Below the pieces are notes generated by a model. It ran no database searches and was not told where the DNA came from. It worked only from the letters and a program-made list of their open reading frames with translations. This document shows positions 1-10,193 of a DNA stretch of 64,000 nucleotides, one piece after another. Source of the DNA: Bacteroidota bacterium (GTDB taxonomy: Bacteria > Bacteroidota > Bacteroidia > Bacteroidales > Lentimicrobiaceae); assembly GCA_009773455.1 (NCBI GenBank), contig WSXU01000011.1, positions 1-64,000 on the forward strand. The letters run 5' to 3'. The position numbers and the translations under genes are program-made. Each line of letters starts with the position of its first letter. The stretch's first letter is position 1.

Positions 1-22
1 CGGAAATGATGTTGGTTAGCGT

Positions 23-41
23 ATGGCGCCTTTGGCGCCAT
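23..41. repeat. Short perfect inverted repeat at window start
   Basis: The arms ATGGCGCC and GGCGCCAT are perfect complements around a TTT loop. It lies in the first 170 bases, where I find no gene I can name; frame 3 is open only to about position 83. It could be the tail structure of a gene outside the window. No function is assigned. Confidence 0.35.
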
Positions 42-170
42 GGTCGTCAGGTAGTTTATCCCAATTACTATCGGGAAGTCTGACCACTCCGACTAAAGAT
101 AAGGTACTGACAGGCACCTTTCTTATTTAATATTCCGGCCATAGTCGGGAATCAGAAAATACAAAATAAA

Positions 171-198
171 AAAACCGGACTTTCGTCCGGTTTTTTTT
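171..198. terminator. Bidirectional intrinsic terminator
   Basis: A 10-bp stem (AAAACCGGAC / GTCCGGTTTT) with a TTTC loop is flanked by A and T runs on both sides. It lies about 30 nt beyond the stop of the minus-strand TPR gene, so it should end the sigma/TPR transcript. It may also end whatever reads in from the left edge. Confidence 0.85.
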
Positions 199-228
199 GT
201 CTTATCAATGACCTTTGTGCGGGTGTGG

Positions 229-990
229 TTACTTGCGGCCCAGTTTTTCTAGAATTTTGTTAGCTTCCTTGTTGTGGTAGTTTTTCTGGTCGGCCGCGAT
301 CTTGCGGAATTGTTCAACGGCATAATCAATCTGCTCGTTCTTTAGGTAGCACAGCCCGAGATACCATTCGGCATGCTCTACATAGAGGTTGTTCTTGTCA
401 TCGATGATGTACCTGAACGCTTTAACGGCGTCGTCGATACGATTGGTCTCGATGTAAGAGATCCCATTGTAGAACCATACTGCGATATTGGAGCTGTCCT
501 TATCAAGTATTTCAGCAAACAGCAGGGAAGCTCCCTGGAAGTCTTTTTGCTGGAACTTAAGAATAGCCTCCACAATGTTCGCATTGCCCGAACGGGTTAG
601 TTCAATAGTACGATCTGTGTCATAGTACATACTGAACAGTTTCTCTGCCGTGTAGGAGCGCTGCTGAGTCAGCAGGATGGCACCTCCGGCAATCATCAGA
701 ACAGCGATAGCTGCAGCTGCAACTAACTGCCACCTGCGTGGCTGCATTCTGACGATCTTAGTTGTTGCCTCTTTCTGCTTTGACTCGTTAAAGACACTGA
801 TTAACTTGCGTCGGAATTCAACAACGTCTTCGTCAAGAAGAATGTTGTCAAGATCCTTGTCAAGCTTCAGTTCACCGGAAAGTTCGGCATTGGTTTGTAA
901 TTCCTTGCCAAACCACCTGAGTTCATCCTCATTCATTTCCCCGGCTATGAATCTCTCGATCAGCTGGGAATACTTGAGTTTTCTAGTCAT
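229..990 (-). CDS. Single-pass membrane TPR protein, putative anti-sigma factor
   Basis: This 253-residue protein probably restrains the ECF sigma factor encoded just before it. From the ATG at 990, residues 1-85 are a charged cytoplasmic segment containing the pattern GEMNEDELRWF, like the short helical N-termini of Bacteroidota anti-sigma proteins. Residues about 88-107 form one hydrophobic helix, and the rest is a periplasmic domain with two to three TPR-like helical pairs. The ATG at 990 overlaps the sigma stop in the 8-base string ATGACTAG, which implies translational coupling; an upstream in-frame start would overlap the sigma gene by over 100 bases. No zinc-binding anti-sigma motif is visible. 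The anti-sigma role is inferred from topology and operon order. A plain TPR scaffold partner of the CHAT protein is the main alternative. Confidence 0.75.
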   Translation of the reverse strand: MTRKLKYSQLIERFIAGEMNEDELRWFGKELQTNAELSGELKLDKDLDNILLDEDVVEFRRKLISVFNESKQKEATTKIVRMQPRRWQLVAAAAIAVLMIAGGAILLTQQRSYTAEKLFSMYYDTDRTIELTRSGNANIVEAILKFQQKDFQGASLLFAEILDKDSSNIAVWFYNGISYIETNRIDDAVKAFRYIIDDKNNLYVEHAEWYLGLCYLKNEQIDYAVEQFRKIAADQKNYHNKEANKILEKLGRK

Positions 991-1564
991 CAGACAGGAA
1001 TTTATGGCACTTGGGGTCATTGATAATTCTCTTTTTAAGTTCCTCTTTGCAGAGGTATTTTCGTGTTTTTGCGTATTTCTCAGTCTTGTAACCCATTTCA
1101 ACCGCTATTTCTCTCAAAGATAGCTTTTTCATAAACAGCAGGAGCACTTTCTGACAATCGTCATGTAAAGTTAAAAAATGCTGCTGATATAACCTGTATT
1201 TTTCAACCTCATCATCGTAGATTTCCTCCATCACTTTATCGGGTAATTCCACAAATGATTCAATATCGCTGAATTCACGGGCAAACTGCTTGCGACGGCT
1301 TAGTTTTTGCAACCATAAATTCCTGCAGACTGAATACAGGTAAGTACGAAAAGAACTGCTTAACTCAAACTGATTGTCCCTTATTTTTTTGAAAATAACA
1401 ATCAGGCTATCCTGAAAAATATCTTCGGCATCTTCTTCATTACCACTATTCTTAACCACCAGGTATTTTATCGTGGGAAATAACTCCTGATAAATATACT
1501 TGATGATAAAATCACTCCTCAACCGTAAGCCTTCGATGATTGCCTCATCCGAATAGTGGATCAT
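983..1564 (-). CDS. ECF-type RNA polymerase sigma factor
   Basis: The 193-residue protein has the two-domain layout of extracytoplasmic-function sigma factors. Region 2 lies around residues 30-100, with the helix EDAEDIFQDSLIVIFKKI and the segment FRTYLYSVCRNLWLQK. Region 4 lies around residues 130-175, with LSLREIAVEMGYK as the helix-turn-helix. There is no extra C-terminal domain. It is the first gene of a two-gene minus-strand operon and overlaps the membrane TPR gene by 8 bases. The secreted repeat proteins and TPR-CHAT gene are transcribed away from it, so they are the natural candidate regulon, though this is inferred. Upstream on the minus strand is a weak TACCTTTT -7-like element with no convincing -33 element. 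Confidence 0.92.
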   Translation of the reverse strand: MIHYSDEAIIEGLRLRSDFIIKYIYQELFPTIKYLVVKNSGNEEDAEDIFQDSLIVIFKKIRDNQFELSSSFRTYLYSVCRNLWLQKLSRRKQFAREFSDIESFVELPDKVMEEIYDDEVEKYRLYQQHFLTLHDDCQKVLLLFMKKLSLREIAVEMGYKTEKYAKTRKYLCKEELKKRIINDPKCHKFLSDD

Positions 1565-1717
1565 GATCTGTTTCTTTATCCGATTAAGTCAAAAAGGTAA
1601 TACGTGATTTTTTGATTTTTTTTCAACCCCTGATCAATGTAAAATAATATATCAATCTCAGGTCGGATCATTAAAATTCTTTGCATTTCTTTTGTTTGTT
1701 CACATTAATTTTTTAGA

Positions 1718-1744
1718 TTTGTTGAAAAAAAGTTAATAACTTTG
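1718..1744 (+). promoter_or_regulatory. Bacteroidota-type promoter for the repeat-protein gene
   Basis: A -33-like TTTG (1718-1721) is followed after 15 bases by TAACTTTG (1737-1744), matching the -7 consensus TAnnTTTG. The spacer is shorter than the usual 19 or so. If used, it gives a 5' leader of about 310 nt before the ATG at 2061. It could instead be the site for the neighbouring ECF sigma factor; the sequence alone does not tell. Confidence 0.45.
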
Positions 1745-1812
1745 GCAGTAAATTTTTAAATCACTGAGTTCTTTACAACAGAAAAAGGCAAACCACAAAG
1801 TAAAAAAGCGTT

Positions 1813-1838
1813 GAAAGTACCGGTTTTACTGGCCTTTC
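1813..1838 (+). promoter_or_regulatory. Hairpin in the long 5' leader
   Basis: An imperfect stem pairs GAAAG with CTTTC and CCGG with CTGG around a TTTTA loop. It is followed by CGATTTTG, a weak T-rich tail. It could act as an attenuator or an RNA-stabilising element in the leader of the repeat-protein gene. Seen by eye only. Confidence 0.3.
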
Positions 1839-2060
1839 GATTTTGATTCAACTTTATGAAAGAAATTTTCCGGCTTTTAGTCATGCAATTTTTTTTACAT
1901 TCTCCCGATTTACTGCTATAACCATGCGTGACTTCATCAGCCCGAATCCTTACTTTTCAACATAATTAATGTCAACAACTTCAAAAAGTAACTAATCCCT
2001 AAGAAATAACCATAAAACCACAAAACCAAACTATGATTATTTACCAAAACCCCGTGAAAA

Positions 2061-2654
2061 ATGAAAAACAAAACAGTGCATTGGATGGTCTCCATAGCAG
2101 CAGGCGTGTTGCTATGTGGCCAGGTGCTAGCTCAGGCCGACATTGGCGGACCGGGCCAGTACCACTTCTATGTGAACAAACCGATCCCTTCATTTGACCT
2201 GAAGTTGAATGACAACTTCGGGACCAATATTCTGAAAGCTACTACAGCAATTCCATCAGAATTTACATTAAGTGAGAAAACCAACCCTCCTACAATGGGA
2301 GGTTCAAGTGCCGGCGATGTTAATGGTACATTTGTTCCATCAACACGCTATATTGATTTACAACTACTAACTACCAATCCTCCTACAATGGGTGGCTCAA
2401 GTGCCGGCGATGTTAATGGTACCTTCGTACCGTCGACCCGCCATAATGTGTCACAGCTATTTGCTACCAACCCTCCAACGATGGGTGGTTCAAGTGCCGG
2501 CGATGTTAATGGTACTTTTGTACCGTCAACCCGTCATAATGTGTCACAGCTACTTGCTACCAATCCACCAACAATGGGTGGCTCCAGTGCTGGCGATGTT
2601 AATGGTACATTTGTTCCGTCAACCCGCTTTCATGAAGTCACAGCAACTACGTAA
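2061..2654 (+). CDS. Secreted four-repeat peptide protein of the CHAT locus
   Basis: This 197-residue protein has a signal peptide (residues 1-24, ending VLA before Q25). A short domain at about residues 26-73 resembles the N-terminus of the next gene product; both share NKPIPS and a following beta-rich pattern. Four exact copies of a 23-residue peptide follow, starting TNPPTMGG and ending TFVPSTR, at residues 74-96, 105-127, 136-158 and 167-189. Eight-residue linkers such as HNVSQLFA separate them, so the period is exactly 31 residues. The protein ends eight residues after the last copy and has no T9SS sorting domain, so it should stay in the periplasm unless exported otherwise. I recognise no named family. 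It looks like a truncated, repeat-expanded paralogue of the next gene. Function is unknown; substrate or ligand of the CHAT protein is my inference. Confidence 0.8.
   Translation: MKNKTVHWMVSIAAGVLLCGQVLAQADIGGPGQYHFYVNKPIPSFDLKLNDNFGTNILKATTAIPSEFTLSEKTNPPTMGGSSAGDVNGTFVPSTRYIDLQLLTTNPPTMGGSSAGDVNGTFVPSTRHNVSQLFATNPPTMGGSSAGDVNGTFVPSTRHNVSQLLATNPPTMGGSSAGDVNGTFVPSTRFHEVTATT
2280..2627 (+). repeat. Four in-frame 69-bp repeats on a 93-bp period
   Basis: The units are 2280-2348, 2373-2441, 2466-2534 and 2559-2627, each encoding the same 23 residues. The DNA copies differ at several codon third positions (for example GGA GGT, GGT GGC and GGT GGT for the Gly pair) with no amino-acid change. These are therefore selected coding repeats, not a recent slippage product. 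Confidence 0.95.
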
Positions 2655-2996
2655 CGAGGTTAATGCAGTTAAGTGTTTTTATGGTAAAAAACAGGGGGCT
2701 AATTAGCCCCCTGTTTTTTTTTGGAATAATCTGCAAGAAATGGTATTACCTTTTTCATATTTTAAGATAAAGGGGAGTAGAGATCTGGTTTGTCAAAACC
2801 GAAAGAAGGATAAATCAGGTTTTTACAAAGTAATGAAGCTGCCGGCGAACTATCAGGTGAAAAACATGAAATCTTACGGTACAGAGCACAAAAATCTCTG
2901 CCGGCTTTTAAGGAAGACTTCACCTGAAGCCACATGAAGTGACCCTGGAGAAATACTACAACAAACAGTTTGTGAACAAACTTAAGCCACGTGAAA
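2655..2996. other. Intergenic region between the two repeat-bearing genes
   Basis: About 340 bases hold a terminator (2689-2722), then a weak TACCTTTT promoter-like site at 2747-2754 with TTTG 23 bases before it. A small inverted repeat follows (ACTTCA at 2917-2922 with TGAAGT at 2935-2940), close to the next start. A 65-codon open frame here has no family resemblance or ribosome-binding site, so I do not call a gene. Confidence 0.5.
2689..2722 (+). terminator. Intrinsic terminator after the repeat-protein gene
   Basis: The stem ACAGGGGGCT / AGCCCCCTGT encloses AATT and is followed by nine T residues, 35 nt after the stop at 2654. The paralogous next gene ends with a hairpin starting with the same ACAGGGGGCT string, which supports duplication of the whole gene unit. 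Confidence 0.9.
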
Positions 2997-4217
2997 ATGA
3001 AAAAAAGTTCTACAAAATTACTGACTACCTGTTTGACCCTTCTGCTGCTGACCGGTCAGGTATTTGCCCAATCAGATATCAGTGGACTGGTGTTGTACCA
3101 TCTTAAGGCCAACAAGCCCATTCCATCAGTTCAACTCAACCTGGTTGATCAGGCCGGTGTTGTAATTGCATCAGCAACCACAGATCTTAGTGGAGCCTAT
3201 ACTTTTACCAATGTTCCTTTCGGCAATTACACAATGACTGCCGTGACCAGCATTACCGCCGGTGGAATTACCATGGGCGATGCCTTTCTGATGTTTCTTC
3301 ATCTGTGCAACATTTATCCTTTTTCACCCATACAGGAACTTGCCGCCGATGTTGATGGCGATGGAACTGTTACCTGGGATGATTACTGGACGGTTGTCAT
3401 CGGATGGTTTGTTCAGGGATATCCCTTCCCCACCGGGCCATGGGTTTTCCAGGATGTAACAGTGGTTCACACCGGCGCAAAAACCAATCCGCCGACCATG
3501 GGTGGATCCAGCGCAGGTGATGTAAACGGAACTTTTGTTCCGTCAACACGTGATCTGGCGGCAATCCAGGCAACGTATACCGAAAAAATTGCCGGAAATG
3601 ATTTCAATGTCGAAATATTTGCGAAAGACATTACCGAAGCTTCAGCAATGGGTATGGTAATCAACTACCCTTCATCCAGTGTGGAGATTAAGGATGTTAC
3701 CTGCCAGATGGGCGATATCAATATGTCAGTCGTTAACGGACAAATCCGTATCAGCTGGGTTAATCAGACAACATCGGCAACCTCAGTAGATCCTGACAGC
3801 CCTGTTCTTGTGATACACGCAGGCACCATCAGTTCATATGATGGAAGTGATATAAAATTTGTTATCGATCCTGTCAGTCATTTCAGCAATTTCAAAGGCG
3901 AACAGATTGACACGCGTTATACACTTCCGCTGATCACAAATTCAGCAGCTTGTCTCAGTACGAATTATCCCAACCCGTTCAGCGGCAGCACCAACATCAT
4001 GTATACTCTGCCTTCAGACGCAAAGGTCAATATCAGCCTTTTCAATCAGCAGGGCCAGCTTGTAAAAGTGATCGCTGATACTGAAGCCGAAGCAGGAACG
4101 CACAATTTGGTTTTTGACAGTTACGGACTCGAAGCCGGTGTATATTATTACACCCTGAAGGCTACAGGAAGTTCAAATCTTAGTGAAACCAAACGAATGA
4201 TAATTACCCGTCAATAA
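2997..4217 (+). CDS. T9SS-exported protein with dockerin-like loop and one CHAT-locus peptide repeat
   Basis: This 406-residue surface or secreted protein has a signal peptide (residues 1-24). A carboxypeptidase-regulatory-like beta domain follows (about 26-85, with TTDLSGAYTFTNVPFGNY). A dockerin/EF-hand-like loop comes next (from residue 118, DVDGDGTVTWDDY), then one copy of the 23-residue peptide (163-185). A cohesin-like beta domain spans about 195-315. A C-terminal T9SS sorting domain starts at N323 (NYPNPFSG) and ends MIITRQ. I start at the ATG at 2997; the GTG six bases upstream is in frame but less likely. The context GTGAAAATGAAAAA closely matches that of the previous gene, so the two share an ancestor. 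The module order (dockerin-like, linker, cohesin-like, sorting domain) is common in Bacteroidota secreted proteins. The specific function is unknown. Confidence 0.85.
   Translation: MKKSSTKLLTTCLTLLLLTGQVFAQSDISGLVLYHLKANKPIPSVQLNLVDQAGVVIASATTDLSGAYTFTNVPFGNYTMTAVTSITAGGITMGDAFLMFLHLCNIYPFSPIQELAADVDGDGTVTWDDYWTVVIGWFVQGYPFPTGPWVFQDVTVVHTGAKTNPPTMGGSSAGDVNGTFVPSTRDLAAIQATYTEKIAGNDFNVEIFAKDITEASAMGMVINYPSSSVEIKDVTCQMGDINMSVVNGQIRISWVNQTTSATSVDPDSPVLVIHAGTISSYDGSDIKFVIDPVSHFSNFKGEQIDTRYTLPLITNSAACLSTNYPNPFSGSTNIMYTLPSDAKVNISLFNQQGQLVKVIADTEAEAGTHNLVFDSYGLEAGVYYYTLKATGSSNLSETKRMIITRQ
3483..3551 (+). repeat. Fifth copy of the 23-residue peptide repeat
   Basis: It encodes exactly the same 23 residues as the four copies upstream. 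It differs from the first copy at 16 of 23 codons, all synonymous. It lies in the linker between the dockerin-like loop and the cohesin-like domain. Confidence 0.95.
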
Positions 4218-4236
4218 TCATACTGGTTTTGTGGTA

Positions 4237-4268
4237 AACAGGGGGCTGACGGGTCCCCTGTTTTTTTT
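4237..4268 (+). terminator. Intrinsic terminator before the TPR-CHAT gene
   Basis: ACAGGGG pairs with CCCCTGT around the loop GCTGACGGGT, followed by a run of T, 20 nt after the stop at 4217. It isolates the T9SS gene from the TPR-CHAT gene, so the latter needs its own promoter or depends on readthrough. Confidence 0.85.
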
Positions 4269-4275
4269 GTCCCGT

Positions 4276-4309
4276 TTTGAACAATCTGGATTGTTTATTA
4301 TTACTTTTG
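4276..4309 (+). promoter_or_regulatory. Promoter candidate for the TPR-CHAT gene
   Basis: TTTG (4276-4279) and TACTTTTG (4302-4309, matching TAnnTTTG) are separated by 22 bases. The expected transcript start is about 30 nt before the ATG at 4348. This supports 4348 over the upstream in-frame start at 4231, which would lie inside the terminator. Confidence 0.6.
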
Positions 4310-4347
4310 TGACAAACGACTCTGTTTTTAATATTTCAGGTTCCTCT

Positions 4348-7300
4348 ATGGTCCGACCTCTCAAACGTCGCCTGAATTTTCTGATTAAGATCACCCTTCT
4401 GATGCTGTTCTGTATCGGCATGTTCATTGGTTGCACCGATGATAAGAAACCTTCCGGACGGATCGCTACAGCAACCAGAGGCGGCACCAGTTACCGTGAT
4501 ATATTAAACAAGGCAGACGATTTCATGGAGAAATCGGAATACGACAGTGCCTTTAAATATTATGAGGTGGCAAACACCATGCTTAGGGCTGAGAATAACT
4601 GGAAAGAATACCTGAAAATTCTTTTGAAAGAGGTAGATGCTTTAAGGTTGAAGGGAAATGCAAATGAAGCTTTTGGCAAAATATCAGAAGCCCGGAAACT
4701 GCTGGAAGATAAGTTTAGCAGCGATAAAGGATTCCAGGCTGATATCTTCCACAGGCAAGGCATACTGCTGATGGATAAGGGGAGTTTTGACAGTTCACTT
4801 ACAGCGTTTAATCAAAGTATAAGAATTCGCATCAGCGCTTCGGACGATAAGGATACACTGCTTGCGCCCAGTTATAATGGACTGGGTACCATTTACTTTT
4901 TTAATGGTGAATATGATGAAGCACTGAAGAATTATTCCAAAGCCTATCAACTGGCCCTTGGCAGAAGAATTCCTGAAGATAAAGATCTGGCAAGGTACGT
5001 TCAGAATATCGGAATTATATATGCTCAGCAGGGTGATTATCCCATGGCCGAGGACGCCATGACATCCTCCCTTGGTATCATTGAAAAGATTTCATTGCCC
5101 AATGATCCTGAACTTGCAAACCGCTACCTGAATATGGGGCGATTTCTGACCCTTGAGTATAATGTATCTGAGGCCATAACCTATTTCGAGAAAGCTGAAA
5201 AAATTCTGCTTGAAAAGGTAGGCGCCAACCATCCCGATCTGGGAAGCCTTTACCTCAATATCGGCCAAACATACATTCATCTGGCTGATTACGAAAAAGC
5301 ACTGACGTTTTTCAACAAAGCCCTTGCCATCGCCAGTGAAAATTTTGAACCGGGACATCCGAGTATACTTTCGATAAATATGAACATCGGTTACGTTTAT
5401 GAGAAGAAAGGGGAATATAAAAACGCACTGAAATATTATGAATTGAGTTTGCCTGAAGATAAAAACAATCCATCTGTAATAAAGACCTATTCAAATATGG
5501 CAAGCCTTTACAGTGCCATGAAGCAGCCCGAAAAAGCAGATGAATTCTACAATAAGGCCATCAGTATTGCCGTAAGTCAGTTTGGACCCGACCATCCCGA
5601 AACAGGCTTGCTGTATACGAGGTACGGCTATTTCCTCTCACAGGAAAAGCTGGAAGAAAAAAGCATAGTGTGGATAAGGAAAGCCCTTGAAATCAGCCTG
5701 AAAAATTATGGAAAGAAAAGCAGGGAGGTCTCAAACAATTTAACCCATATTGGAAATTATTACCTGATTAAGAACGACTTCCGCCAGGCCCTGAAGTATT
5801 ATCAGGATGCAATCATAGCCTATGTAAAGGATTTTAATGATATTTCCATTTCGTCAAACCCGGTGGTGAAATCGATCGAACCTGACCGCTACCTTGTGAA
5901 TGCCCTCAACGGGAAGGCAGAAGCCCTGAGTTTGCTCAATTCGGAGTCGGACCTCAAGAACAGCCTGGAAACCTATAAACTTGCTATCAAAGTAGTTGAA
6001 AAGCTTCGTTCAACATACCAGAATGAAGAGAGCAAACTGCTGTTGTCGGAGGAAGAACGCAAAACATTTCTGAGTACGGTGAAAGTGTCGGCCTCACTTT
6101 ACAAAATCACAGGAAAGAAAGAGTATCTTGAAGAAGCATTCCGATACTCCGACAAAGGAAAGTCTGCTGTACTCTTTGCCTCGCTGCAGGACATTGAAGC
6201 GCGTCAGTTTGGAAGGATACCCCAGAAAATTCAGGATGTAGAAAAGAAAATCAAGCTTGATCTTGGTTCATATCAGCGTTACACTTATGAGGAAAGACAA
6301 AAAACCCAACCAAATGAGGTAAAACTCAGGTTCTGGGAAACCAAAATATTCGAACTTGAATCAAGATACGACAGCCTTACAAGTGTTCTTGAAAAGGAAT
6401 ATCCCGACTATTACAGCCTCAAATACAAAGAACCGGATGTTTCTGTCGACAAGATCAAAAAACAACTTGATCCGGGCCGGGCAGTTATTGAGTATACAAT
6501 GACAGATACGGACATTTATCTGTTTGTAATTGACCAGAACAAATTTGAACTGATTACGCGAAAAATAGATTCCTCATTTATTAAAAACATTGCTGTGATG
6601 AGGGATGCTACCAGTTCGGGAGACCTGATGAGTGTCCGGATGGAAGATTACCTCAGATATACCAGCGCTGCTTATGCCTTATACCAGGACCTGATTGAGC
6701 CTTGCACCAAAATTGTTCCGGATAAAAAACTGATCATCATTCCTGATTCTGAGATCGGCTATGTCTCCTTTGATATGCTGCTGGATGCTCCTGCCAATCA
6801 ATCGAGGATGGACTTCAGGGATTTGCCCTTTCTGATCAGAAATTATGTGATCAGCTACAGCGCTTCGGCAACCCTCCAGTTTTCCGCATTAAACAAGGGC
6901 GAAAAGAAAGCAACACGCAATCTTCTGGCCATGGCTCCTTCTTACGAAAATCTTACCAATTTAAAGGAAAACGGGTTTATTGATGAGACCGGTAAAACGG
7001 TTTACCTGTTACCAATCCCGGGGGTTGAAGAAGAGATAAAAGGGATAAAAAAAGCGCTTTCCGGATATACTATTTCTGGAGAAGAAGCTACAGAAAAGAA
7101 TTTCAAGGAAATTGCCGGCAAATACAATATCCTTCACCTGGCGATGCATACCCTGGTGAACAACGAAAAACCCATGCTTTCGAAGCTTGTTTTCTACCAG
7201 AACAAAGACACCATTGAAGATGGAATGCTCAATACCTACGAGTTATTCGGCATGAACCTCAATGCCGGCCTTGCCGTGCTTAGTGCCTGTAACACCGGGA

Positions 7301-7695
7301 CCGGAAAGCTTATGAAGGGCGAAGGAATGATGAACCTGGCAAGGGGATTTATTTATGCCGGGGTACCTGGGATAGTGATGACCCTATGGTCGGTTGAGGA
7401 CCAATCCAGTGCTGAAATTGTCCGTAAGTTTTATGAGTACCTTGAGGATGGTATGTCGAAAGATGAAGCCCTGCGACAGTCAAAACTCGACCTGATCAAC
7501 CAGGGCGACCCCTTGCGTTCACATCCTTATTATTGGGCAGCGTATGTTACCATCGGAGATTATAGTCCGATGAAGCTTATCAAACCACTCTGGATCAGTC
7601 TCATGTTCGGCCTCATCGGACTAATTTCAATAACCGGAATCGCATTTCTTCTATTCAGAAAAAGGAAGGCCGGATCAGGCTTAGCCAGGCAGTAA
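4348..7695 (+). CDS. Envelope-anchored TPR-CHAT (caspase-like) protease
   Basis: This 1115-residue protein joins about ten TPR helical pairs (roughly residues 40-560) to a C-terminal CHAT domain (about 720-1075), a clan CD cysteine-protease fold related to caspases and separase. The expected catalytic pair is visible: His934 in LHLAMHTL and Cys981 in VLSACNTGTG. The ATG at 4348 gives a lipoprotein-type signal with lipobox FIGC (Cys29). The C-terminus has a hydrophobic helix (about 1081-1103) followed by RKRK, placing the body in the periplasm. Most TPR-CHAT proteins I know of are cytoplasmic, so this double-anchored form is notable. It follows the two peptide-repeat proteins, which are plausible substrates because clan CD proteases often cut after Arg and each repeat ends in Arg. 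Activity and substrate are inferred; a non-catalytic signalling role is possible. Confidence 0.88.
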   Translation: MVRPLKRRLNFLIKITLLMLFCIGMFIGCTDDKKPSGRIATATRGGTSYRDILNKADDFMEKSEYDSAFKYYEVANTMLRAENNWKEYLKILLKEVDALRLKGNANEAFGKISEARKLLEDKFSSDKGFQADIFHRQGILLMDKGSFDSSLTAFNQSIRIRISASDDKDTLLAPSYNGLGTIYFFNGEYDEALKNYSKAYQLALGRRIPEDKDLARYVQNIGIIYAQQGDYPMAEDAMTSSLGIIEKISLPNDPELANRYLNMGRFLTLEYNVSEAITYFEKAEKILLEKVGANHPDLGSLYLNIGQTYIHLADYEKALTFFNKALAIASENFEPGHPSILSINMNIGYVYEKKGEYKNALKYYELSLPEDKNNPSVIKTYSNMASLYSAMKQPEKADEFYNKAISIAVSQFGPDHPETGLLYTRYGYFLSQEKLEEKSIVWIRKALEISLKNYGKKSREVSNNLTHIGNYYLIKNDFRQALKYYQDAIIAYVKDFNDISISSNPVVKSIEPDRYLVNALNGKAEALSLLNSESDLKNSLETYKLAIKVVEKLRSTYQNEESKLLLSEEERKTFLSTVKVSASLYKITGKKEYLEEAFRYSDKGKSAVLFASLQDIEARQFGRIPQKIQDVEKKIKLDLGSYQRYTYEERQKTQPNEVKLRFWETKIFELESRYDSLTSVLEKEYPDYYSLKYKEPDVSVDKIKKQLDPGRAVIEYTMTDTDIYLFVIDQNKFELITRKIDSSFIKNIAVMRDATSSGDLMSVRMEDYLRYTSAAYALYQDLIEPCTKIVPDKKLIIIPDSEIGYVSFDMLLDAPANQSRMDFRDLPFLIRNYVISYSASATLQFSALNKGEKKATRNLLAMAPSYENLTNLKENGFIDETGKTVYLLPIPGVEEEIKGIKKALSGYTISGEEATEKNFKEIAGKYNILHLAMHTLVNNEKPMLSKLVFYQNKDTIEDGMLNTYELFGMNLNAGLAVLSACNTGTGKLMKGEGMMNLARGFIYAGVPGIVMTLWSVEDQSSAEIVRKFYEYLEDGMSKDEALRQSKLDLINQGDPLRSHPYYWAAYVTIGDYSPMKLIKPLWISLMFGLIGLISITGIAFLLFRKRKAGSGLARQ

Positions 7696-7730
7696 AACCT
7701 CCCTGTTATCATCTGCAGCACGAATATTTG

Positions 7731-7738
7731 TACTTTTG
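7731..7738 (+). promoter_or_regulatory. Promoter -7 element for mutS2
   Basis: TACTTTTG matches TAnnTTTG. It overlaps the most upstream possible start of mutS2 (7728) and so argues for the GTG at 7755. No clear -33 element is seen. Confidence 0.5.
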
Positions 7739-7754
7739 CCTGAAACAACCTACT

Positions 7755-10193
7755 GTGATTTACCCTGATACCTTCGATTCCAAAACGGGTTTTGATAAAA
7801 TCCGTGTTATGCTTGAAGGGATTTGTTTCAGCCCCTATGCCAAAAAGCTGGCCTCTGAAATAGCATTTTCCAATGATTTCAGTAAAATTTCAACGCTGAT
7901 CAATGAGGCGGCCGAGATGAAGTATATTCTTCAGTTTATCGGCAATTTTCCGTCACAGGACTATTATGATTTGTCAGAAGAACTTACCCGCGTAAGGCTG
8001 CCCGGAACATTTACCGACCCTGACACGATGATTGGCCTGAGACTTTCGTTAATCACCATTACCGACATTATCCGTTTTCTGAAACGGCTTGATGCTGTGG
8101 AGTTTCCACGGTTATCGGCACTCATCCCGGCAAATGTTCCTGATCCCGGCCTTATAAAAAAAATAGAACAGATTATTGATGAGAAAGCAGGCATAAGGGA
8201 TAAGGCGAGTGAAAAACTATATGGAATCAGGCGTGAAATCAGCAGCAAACTATCGGGAGCCGACAGGCGCATTAACCAGATCCTGGCTACGGCACGAAAA
8301 GACGGACTTACCGGCGACGATACAGAACTCACCATCCGGAACGGCCGGCTTGTTATCCCGGTTTCTGCATCGAACAAGCGGAAGATATCAGGATACATCC
8401 ATGATACCAGTGCTACAGGTCAAACAGTTTATATCGAACCTGCAGAGGTCTTTGAGATAAATAACGAAGTGCAGAATCTGAGGATTGAGGAACGGCAGGA
8501 AGTCATCAGAATCCTGACCGAGTTTACTGATTTCCTCAGACCACATATCCCTGGTTTATCAGAATTCTACAGGTTTCTGGGTGAAATAGATTTCATCCGG
8601 GCAAAGGCGGGCATGGCGATTAAGATGGATGCCGTTAAACCCATGCTGACCGACAGGCCTGTGATAAAATGGCAAAAAGCCATTCATCCGCTGCTCAATC
8701 AGAGCCTGAAGCAACAGGGCAGGAAGATCGTTCCGCTAGATATTGAACTCAATTCAGAGCAACGCATCCTGATCATCAGCGGCCCGAATGCCGGTGGAAA
8801 ATCAGTCTGCCTGAAGACCGCAGGCTTGCTCCAATACATGCTTCAGTGCGGGCTTCTGATTCCGGTTGGCGATGACTCGGAGGCCGGTATTTTCAGCAGT
8901 ATCTTTCTTGAGATCGGTGATGAACAATCACTTGAAAACGACCTGAGCACCTATAGCTCTCATCTGATCCACATCAGGACATTGCTGGAGAATGTCAATA
9001 ATACGACGCTGTTTCTTATTGATGAGTTCGGGGCAGGCACCGAACCCCAACTCGGTGGCGCTATGGCCGAAGCCAGTCTTGAAGCCCTGAGCCGGATGGG
9101 TGGCTATGGAATAGTTACCACCCACTACACTAACCTGAAACTGATGGCCGGCAAACAACCGGGCATAGTAAACGGGGCTATGCTCTATGACACAAAGGCG
9201 ATGACCCCTTTGTTCAGGCTCAGTATCGGAAAACCCGGCAGTTCTTTCGCGTTTGAGATAGCAAGGAAGATAGGGTTTCCTTCCGGGGTCCTGGAAGCCG
9301 CAACCGGTAAAATCAGCACTTCACAGCTTGATTTCGAGCATCAGCTTGCACAGCTGGAAGTGGACAAGAAGTTCATTGATCAAAAGACAACAGAACTCAA
9401 GGTTGCAGATGAGACGCTGGCTTCGCTGGTAGGAAGGTACGAGCAGTTACTGAACAGCCTGGAAACCCGGAAACAGGAAATCCTGAGAGAGGCAAAAACC
9501 AAAGCTCAGCAGATCCTCGACAATTCCAACAGAATTATTGAAAAAACCATCAGGGAAATAAAGGAAAACAAGGCTGAGAAGGAATCCACCCGGAAACTGC
9601 GTGAAATGCTTGATCAGTCAAAAGAAGAGATACTCAGCCAGACCTCTGATCCGAAACCATTGCCCGAACCGGTTCTTATTCCGGAAAACGAAGTCAGGCC
9701 CGGAGGACCTCCCCCGGGACCGCTAAGAGCCGGAAGCTTCGTAAGGATGGAAGGTCAGGAAGCCATCGGAAAAATTGAAGAAATAAGAGGTAAACAGGTA
9801 ACGGTTCAATTCGGATCATTGAGAATCAGGACCAAAATGGAGAGCCTGATAGCTGCAACCCACGATGAAATCAGAACATGGGAGGCCAACCAGAAATTCA
9901 GCAAACCCCCGGGTAGCGTATTTCACCAGCTGAATGACAAAATGGCCGATTTCAAAATGTCGATTGACATCCGGGGTAAAAAAGCTGAAGAAGCGCACGA
10001 AATCATTGCAAGGTATATTGATCAGGCCATTCTGCTGAGGGTTCACGAAGTCAGAATTCTACATGGTAAGGGTGATGGTATTCTCAGAAATATCCTGCAG
10101 TCATACCTTCGCGATGTTCCGGAGGTGGCCAGGTATGAAGATGAAAGCATTGAGCGCGGAGGACACGGAGTAACCCTTGTATATTTCAAATAA
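7755..10193 (+). CDS. mutS2: Endonuclease MutS2
   Basis: MutS2 is a MutS-family ATPase involved in suppressing recombination and in ribosome rescue in other bacteria; it is not the canonical mismatch-repair MutS. The product is 812 residues, about the family length. Visible parts are the MutS core and lever region, the Walker A motif GPNAGGKS at 343-350, Walker B LFLIDEFGAGTEP, a coiled-coil segment (about 520-640), and a C-terminal Smr nuclease domain from about residue 735, with DIRG and LHGKGDG motifs. I chose GTG 7755 because the protein then begins MIYPDTF, as in Bacteroidota homologues, and because a promoter element lies at 7731-7738. The leader would be only about 10 nt. It is monocistronic as far as can be seen. 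Confidence 0.93.
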   Translation: MIYPDTFDSKTGFDKIRVMLEGICFSPYAKKLASEIAFSNDFSKISTLINEAAEMKYILQFIGNFPSQDYYDLSEELTRVRLPGTFTDPDTMIGLRLSLITITDIIRFLKRLDAVEFPRLSALIPANVPDPGLIKKIEQIIDEKAGIRDKASEKLYGIRREISSKLSGADRRINQILATARKDGLTGDDTELTIRNGRLVIPVSASNKRKISGYIHDTSATGQTVYIEPAEVFEINNEVQNLRIEERQEVIRILTEFTDFLRPHIPGLSEFYRFLGEIDFIRAKAGMAIKMDAVKPMLTDRPVIKWQKAIHPLLNQSLKQQGRKIVPLDIELNSEQRILIISGPNAGGKSVCLKTAGLLQYMLQCGLLIPVGDDSEAGIFSSIFLEIGDEQSLENDLSTYSSHLIHIRTLLENVNNTTLFLIDEFGAGTEPQLGGAMAEASLEALSRMGGYGIVTTHYTNLKLMAGKQPGIVNGAMLYDTKAMTPLFRLSIGKPGSSFAFEIARKIGFPSGVLEAATGKISTSQLDFEHQLAQLEVDKKFIDQKTTELKVADETLASLVGRYEQLLNSLETRKQEILREAKTKAQQILDNSNRIIEKTIREIKENKAEKESTRKLREMLDQSKEEILSQTSDPKPLPEPVLIPENEVRPGGPPPGPLRAGSFVRMEGQEAIGKIEEIRGKQVTVQFGSLRIRTKMESLIAATHDEIRTWEANQKFSKPPGSVFHQLNDKMADFKMSIDIRGKKAEEAHEIIARYIDQAILLRVHEVRILHGKGDGILRNILQSYLRDVPEVARYEDESIERGGHGVTLVYFK

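Follow-up and report, generated by a model that had tools for sequence, protein, structure and literature searches.

A 23-residue peptide under strong amino-acid constraint, encoded beside a predicted TPR-CHAT protease and an ECF sigma factor in Lentimicrobiaceae

The Craspase module comprises the protease Csx29, a fusion of tetratricopeptide repeats (TPRs) and a CHAT domain, its substrate Csx30, which is cleaved in a small flexible loop, and the sigma factor CASP-sigma (PMC10028731). In the PorA-PorXY-SigP relay of Porphyromonas gingivalis, an exported protein with a C-terminal domain of the type IX secretion system (T9SS) acts upstream of an extracytoplasmic function (ECF) sigma factor (PMC7712824). 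In the DegS-RseA-RpoE pathway (PMC10028731) an ECF sigma factor receives an envelope signal by way of a protease and an anti-sigma factor of the membrane. Here we describe a 64,000-nucleotide stretch of DNA from a Lentimicrobiaceae bacterium (Bacteroidota; GenBank assembly GCA_009773455.1, contig WSXU01000011.1, positions 1 to 64,000), the whole of which we call the window and the genome of which is labelled G000 in comparisons within the genus. It encodes five copies of a 23-residue peptide, TNPPTMGGSSAGDVNGTFVPSTR, near an ECF sigma gene and a gene for a TPR-CHAT protein. Tandem units that are alike as protein and divergent as DNA are also seen in polyubiquitin and in precursors of peptide hormones, yeast alpha-factor for example; in the present case a further copy sits inside a larger T9SS cargo, and release of the units is only putative.

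The locus resembles Craspase in tying a TPR-CHAT protease to a sigma factor and its controlling protein; unlike Craspase, its TPR-CHAT protein begins with a lipobox-like segment and carries a hydrophobic helix at the C-terminus, its candidate substrate is exported, and its putative anti-sigma factor is a membrane protein with TPRs. With the PorA relay it shares an exported protein bearing a T9SS C-terminal domain, placed upstream of an ECF sigma factor, whereas that relay uses a two-component system and a FimH-like PorA, and here the sigma gene has genes for a TPR-CHAT protein and a membrane protein with TPRs nearby. The envelope signal, protease, membrane anti-sigma factor and ECF sigma factor of the DegS pathway would all have counterparts here; the protease family is different, and to our knowledge no repeated exported tag is part of that pathway. 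The peptide stays the same in all five copies while their DNA has drifted, and relatives keep it beside a sigma factor and a caspase-like protease; it may therefore be the signal that the locus reads.

The five copies and the two open reading frames (ORFs) that carry them lie at these positions:

2061..2654, plus strand: ORF1, with a signal-peptide-like start, a short prealbumin-like remnant and four 31-residue units
2280..2348, plus strand: peptide copy 1
2373..2441, plus strand: peptide copy 2
2466..2534, plus strand: peptide copy 3
2559..2627, plus strand: peptide copy 4
2997..4217 (ATG 2997, stop 4217), plus strand: ORF2, a T9SS type A cargo with prealbumin-like domain, dockerin-like region, 23-mer, cohesin-like fold and sorting domain
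3483..3551, plus strand: peptide copy 5, within ORF2, with the dockerin-like region before it and the cohesin-like region after it

As the sequence-only reading had claimed, the 23 residues are present in five exact copies, four in ORF1 and one in the T9SS-exported ORF2, and 16 of 23 codons, every one of them by a synonymous change, distinguish copy 1 from the copy in ORF2. The ORF1 copies follow one another at a 93-nucleotide step. The ten pairs of window copies differ at 8-17 codons with 0 nonsynonymous changes, and each of the 20 variable nucleotide sites among the five copies is a third codon position. An RNA or DNA function of the repeat is unlikely because only third positions vary; no Rfam family reaches its gathering threshold in positions 1-10000 of the window. 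At least 26 substitutions are required among the five copies, and the probability that all would be synonymous is about 5e-15 when the neutral synonymous fraction is 0.28, kappa is assumed to be 2 and substitutions are taken as independent. The ORF1 copies differ among themselves at 8-9 codons and the ORF1-ORF2 pairs at 13-17 of 23, against 15.3 for two random encodings with codons used as in eight genes nearby. In this genome, then, the copies of the two ORFs are saturated at synonymous positions and were not recently copied from each other. When the 23-mer is searched against the window's genome at E values up to 10, six matches are returned, namely the five copies and one 48%-identical sequence (E 1.2).

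The peptide is under strong amino-acid constraint across the genus as well. The sequence-only reading had proposed a dN/dS-type comparison across copies and homologues, and in a scan of 23-codon windows along 19 ORF2 sequences from 16 genus genomes (that of G002 is truncated where its contig stops) none of the 384 windows has a lower proportion of nonsynonymous differences (pN) than the peptide, at 0.080 where the median is 0.347, while its proportion of synonymous differences (pS) is 0.66 against 0.75; the dockerin-like and cohesin-like sequences beside it are far less conserved. In the arrays of all three genomes that carry ORF1, the 23-mer has pN 0 at pS 0.42-0.47. Each 31-residue unit joins this constant 23-mer to a variable 8-residue spacer, and the spacers change residues (pN 0.24 at pS 0.28 among the three of the window, pN 0.089 in G011, no change in the single spacer pair of G017). 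All 37 within-genome pairs, among 32 genus copies, are identical, and the arrays, identical inside each genome, stand 1-2 residues apart between genomes (P3, V3, or L3 with V6); the window has P3 in both its ORF1 and its ORF2, and of the 17 genus genomes that carry the peptide, its genome is the only one to show this residue. G001, G005 and G013 each encode two ORF2 paralogues that are 49-50% identical overall and carry identical 23-mers, with 0.55 of same-residue codons different.

Fourteen positions are invariant in the 32 genus copies (4, 8-10, 12-20 and 23), the last of them an Arg that ends the peptide in 32/32, while positions 1-3, 5-7, 11, 21 and 22 vary, most of all 3, 6, 11 and 21. 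Among 18 sequences from outside the genus, G8 is kept in 16, S10 in 14, G12 in 18, D13 in 16, V or L14 in 15, G16 in 15, F/W/Y18 in 14 and P20 in 16, and in 15 a basic residue lies 2-4 positions beyond the Pro column; positions 1-6 vary freely. The earlier description of the copies as old yet fully constrained thus stands as regards strong constraint on peptide rather than DNA and has to be narrowed as regards its extent, since nine positions vary within the genus and, in homologues beyond it, free variation at the first six accompanies a core that mostly persists.

The peptide is matched in 17 of the 19 genus genomes and in 13/13 of the better ones; the two genomes lacking a match are in 590 and 910 contigs and are 72% and 89% complete. 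ORF2 is present in 16 genus genomes with one copy of the peptide each, and ORF1 arrays in three, with four copies in G000, six in G011 and three in G017. A genome search of G017 found no match to ORF2, which was presumably lost there, given its presence in 16 other genomes. The ORF1 of G017, 137 residues long, consists of a signal-like start, a short NKPIP piece and three identical peptides, and so retains the peptide without dockerin-like, cohesin-like or sorting domains; it adjoins the TPR-CHAT gene, opposite the ECF gene, on a 5958-base contig. In the window, the partner genes are the following:

229..990, minus strand: putative anti-sigma factor, with one hydrophobic helix and C-terminal TPRs (start placed at an internal ATG)
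983..1564, minus strand: ECF sigma factor
4348..7695, plus strand: TPR-CHAT protein, with lipobox-like start, TPRs, a CHAT domain with H934 and C981, and a C-terminal hydrophobic helix

The ECF sigma factor, the TPR membrane protein (putative anti-sigma factor), the cargo and the TPR-CHAT protein constitute a conserved locus. Among 20 loci picked by an ORF2 or peptide match, 16 from the genus and 4 from other families, the ECF and putative anti-sigma genes are present in 18, TPR-CHAT in 19 and ORF2 in 19; both loci that lack ECF start less than 400 bases from ORF2, the single locus missing TPR-CHAT breaks off within ORF2, and G017 supplies the only locus that lacks ORF2. In G004, one of the two genus genomes with no peptide match, the ECF and putative anti-sigma genes lie at a contig end, so the rest of its locus is unseen. 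Six further loci have weaker ORF2 matches, among them G075 with all four genes, G067 with ECF and anti-sigma genes at the contig end, and G030 and G069 with TPR-CHAT present. In the order as a whole, a TPR-CHAT relative (E 1e-60 or better) is found in 96 of 247 genomes, and the 30 TPR-CHAT loci returned have an ORF2-like gene in 20 and an ECF gene in 12 within about 1.5 kb, four of the 30 being genus loci whose ECF gene lies beyond that distance. A strict pattern of the peptide core gives 17 matches in 13 of the 247 genomes, 16 of them in ORF1 or ORF2 genes of the locus (the G067 match is assigned to it by its ECF and anti-sigma genes, the contig ending there) and one in an unrelated ORF of G226. 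The locus survey and these matches bear out the co-occurrence of the peptide with TPR-CHAT and ECF genes that the sequence-only reading had proposed to test.

The TPR-CHAT protein of the window matches PF12770 at E 1.2e-57, and His930, His934 and Cys981 are invariant in 36/36 aligned proteins (35 chosen relatives and the window protein). We take the His/Cys of the window protein to be its catalytic pair; with its TPRs, CHAT domain, His and Cys, it is a predicted caspase-like protease. Its N-terminal hydrophobic segment ends in a lipobox-like Cys. The window's genome has one TPR-CHAT protein, the sole other match covering TPRs alone, and PADLOC returns a generic TPR match for it and none for ORF2 or the ECF protein. 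The ECF sigma factor scores 56 bits against TIGR02937 (cut-off 42.9), and its gene overlaps that of a one-helix membrane protein at 983-990 with the start chosen here. Pfam finds no anti-sigma domain in the latter, TPRs alone being above cut-off, and its anti-sigma role is putative; the hydrophobic segments and the lipobox point to probable membrane or periplasmic locations for both it and the TPR-CHAT protein. In G017 the putative anti-sigma gene is in two overlapping frames (L075:3477-4092), frameshifted or misassembled; in G030 the TPR-CHAT gene is split into two ORFs with two stops within the match (L093:1583-4855); and in G063 (L078:1716-8453) and G232 (L121) a tandem pair of TPR-CHAT genes adjoins an ORF2-like gene.

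The domains of ORF2, and the hairpins that follow ORF1 and ORF2, are these:

3264..3386, plus strand: dockerin-like region (PF00404)
3567..3926, plus strand: cohesin-like fold, residues about 191-310 (AlphaFold2 (AF2) and Foldseek)
3966..4205, plus strand: T9SS C-terminal sorting domain (TIGR04183, PF18962)
2689..2721, plus strand: terminator-like hairpin and T run after ORF1, read by eye
4236..4268, plus strand: terminator-like hairpin and T run after ORF2, read by eye

In Pfam and NCBIfam scans of five and three neighbouring proteins, respectively, the sorting domain of ORF2 lies above the curated cut-offs (TIGR04183 38.4 bits, cut-off 23; PF18962 35.6 bits, cut-off 27), while ORF1 has no Por_Secre_tail or TIGR04183 match up to E 1 and so does not class as T9SS type A cargo. 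The N-terminal domain of ORF2 matches CarboxypepD_reg/SdrD_B-like families, and its dockerin-like region falls below the PF00404 cut-off (18.9 against 22.9 bits), with EF-hand_5 at E 0.081. Pfam gives no cohesin match up to E 1. A search of PDB sequences with ORF2 matches the prealbumin-like and EF-hand parts, and none of the 60 matches listed of 96 covers the peptide. The 140-residue middle of ORF2 is matched in 32 of 99 relatives at E 0.001, in many of them weakly; G069 alone has 24 matches to it, several of them within open frames of very large size, forming an expanded family of dockerin-like sequences. The hairpin elements after ORF1 and ORF2 are 85% alike over 33 nucleotides.

The explanation we favour, at a probability of roughly 0.4, treats the 23-mer as an exported tag for recognition: TPR-CHAT would bind or cut it, and it would feed into the ECF sigma factor. 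What is shown is the constraint on the peptide, its conserved locus, the invariant His/Cys pair and the shared promoter-like element, whereas recognition and signal output are inferred; the binding or cleavage determinant that the sequence-only reading saw in the peptide is thus a candidate role. ORF2, as T9SS cargo, would carry one tag between its dockerin-like and cohesin-like domains, while ORF1 with its several tags should stay in the periplasm because it lacks the T9SS sorting domain. The tag would be bound by the membrane-anchored TPR-CHAT protein encoded next to it, presumably also facing the periplasm, and perhaps cut near the conserved C-terminal Arg/Lys; its state, whether present, cut or exported, would reach the ECF sigma factor by way of the putative anti-sigma factor with its TPRs, and the sigma factor would drive its own operon and ORF2. 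A bolder version, in which ORF1 is a bacterial poly-peptide precursor whose species-specific tags are released or read by a periplasmic TPR-CHAT protein that sets the ECF sigma factor, making the whole a peptide-tag export sensor, is decidedly unlikely. Among the literature matches listed and the passages at hand, which leave Lentimicrobium literature uncovered, there is no peptide-tag export sensor of this kind and no description of the locus; the listed matches to the motif letters are all unrelated by title, and no substrate of a Bacteroidota TPR-CHAT protease is reported in the listed titles and abstract starts. A peptide that hardly varies beside a TPR-CHAT gene, recurs as repeats in an accessory gene and persists where the remainder of its host protein is absent is a concrete candidate for a ligand or substrate. 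If the tag explanation is true, it connects a caspase-like protease with both T9SS cargo and an ECF sigma factor, and an open question becomes accessible to a simple peptide assay.

Several observations weigh against this explanation. Most genomes have a single copy of the peptide and no ORF1. The agreement of the paralogues in G001, G005 and G013 adds little because all carry the commonest 23-mer, and two parallel events may be enough to account for the P3 common to the window's two ORFs, because the G000 ORF1 copies group together in a tree of the 69-nucleotide copies (support 0.85). A reversed control of the strict core gives 9 matches against 17, so that chance matches are to be expected at such a level, and looser GD[VI]NAS elements follow dockerin-like regions in proteins outside the locus; part of the conservation of the peptide may therefore be structural. 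Some ORF2-like proteins of TPR-CHAT loci (L118, L121, L123) depart from the core, 10 of the 30 TPR-CHAT loci, some of them at contig ends, lack an ORF2-like gene inside about 1.5 kb, and the weaker ORF2 relatives of G065 and G062 have no TPR-CHAT or ECF neighbour. The lipobox Cys column is filled in only 20 of the 36 TPR-CHAT proteins, and in G011 exchange between ORF1 and ORF2 is possible.

A structural role between domains is the main rival to the tag explanation, although we consider it unlikely: the peptide would be a clasp or loop packed against the dockerin-like module or sandwiched between the two domains, with the ORF1 repeats as multivalent, scaffold-like ligands in trans for dockerin-like or cohesin-like domains and no sigma role. 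The peptide does sit between both domains in the aligned ORF2 sequences, the related GD[VI]NAS element occupies a comparable place after dockerin-like regions elsewhere, and the predicted fold of ORF2 matches cohesins by Foldseek, for example 6kgc, at TMt up to 0.71. Yet conservation is far weaker in both neighbouring domains than in the peptide, 16 of the 17 strict-core matches lie inside the locus, and the G017 array persists with neither domain; the AF2 model of ORF2, from a 6-sequence alignment, has a predicted local distance difference test (pLDDT) score below 50 for most residues of the peptide and of the dockerin-like region, and therefore gives no structural support to a role for the peptide. 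The sequence-only reading had held that the peptide is not a passive linker, which fits its retention in ORF1 without these domains and is less secure for ORF2, where the structural role is the chief competitor.

Alternatively, ORF1 could be a multi-copy signalling-peptide precursor, cut at Arg and at the spacers into identical, species-specific extracellular peptides. Its signal-like start, its tandem identical peptides with spacers, their identity within species and difference between them, the Arg at the end of every copy and the nearby gene for a caspase-like protease would suit such a precursor, which the single embedded copy of most genomes makes improbable. No more probable is an adhesive or amyloid-like role of ORF1 as a beta-solenoid or fibre on the surface or in a matrix. 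In the AF2 model the ORF1 repeats form strands, most blocks of ten residues having pLDDT 62-78, and the top two Foldseek matches are FapC and CsgA, yet the best E-value is 0.065, the probabilities of those two matches are 0.06 and 0.09, and ORF2 holds only one copy. AF2 is known to yield false beta-solenoids for perfect repeats (PMC11795689), and the ORF1 model is a probable artefact of that type.

Slippage, recent duplication or gene conversion with codon bias is the least probable source of the identity, being ruled out as a full explanation in G000, where the saturated ORF1-ORF2 pairs differ at 59-77% of codons, about the random expectation, and where, as in G011, the spacers of the same units change residues while the 23-mer stays constant. 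The sequence-only reading's rejection of slippage is less firm in G011, where such processes may contribute: there the copies of the two genes are unsaturated, with differences between ORF1 and ORF2 at only 6-11 codons (mean 0.40), and its ORF1 copy 1 clusters with ORF2 in the 69-nucleotide tree (support 0.84). ORF1 copies differ at 0.36-0.40 of codons within a genome against 0.43-0.45 between genomes, so some lineage-specific turnover of the arrays is likely.

The output step of the tag explanation bears on a promoter-like element shared by two transcription units of the window:

2744..2771, plus strand: TATTACCTTT-N12-GATAAA, upstream of ORF2
1575..1602, minus strand: the same element, TATTACCTTT-N12-GATAAA, upstream of the ECF operon

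No exact match lies ahead of ORF1 in the window, and 100 shuffles of the window give 0 matches. With a spacing of 8-18 bases the element occurs 36 times in 18 of the 19 genus genomes, against 1 in the reversed control; 27 of the 36 have the 12-base spacing, 22 of these in the locus and five elsewhere, and among the 19 genomes this form precedes the ECF operon in 15 and ORF2 in 7. The pattern suggests an ECF-dependent promoter, on sequence grounds; ahead of the ECF gene ten bases separate the end of the element from the ATG, an unusually short distance for a promoter.

Exact matches to the element also occur ahead of porP-gldK-gldL in G000 (G000:C65:63016-63043) and G015. A similar sequence lies upstream of this operon (L165-L183) in 17 of 19 genomes, departing from the exact element in 15 of the 17 and fitting TAnnTTTG in all 17. 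TAnnTTTG is the housekeeping -7 box of Bacteroidota, and a sigma link at porP-gldK-gldL is undecided because the site also fits that box; we do not claim SigP-like control of the T9SS core operon through the element. In the window's genome the element further stands ahead of two tandem genes with similar starts (L156:1789-1816, G000:C19), which encode secreted-looking proteins without a Pfam match at E 0.01.

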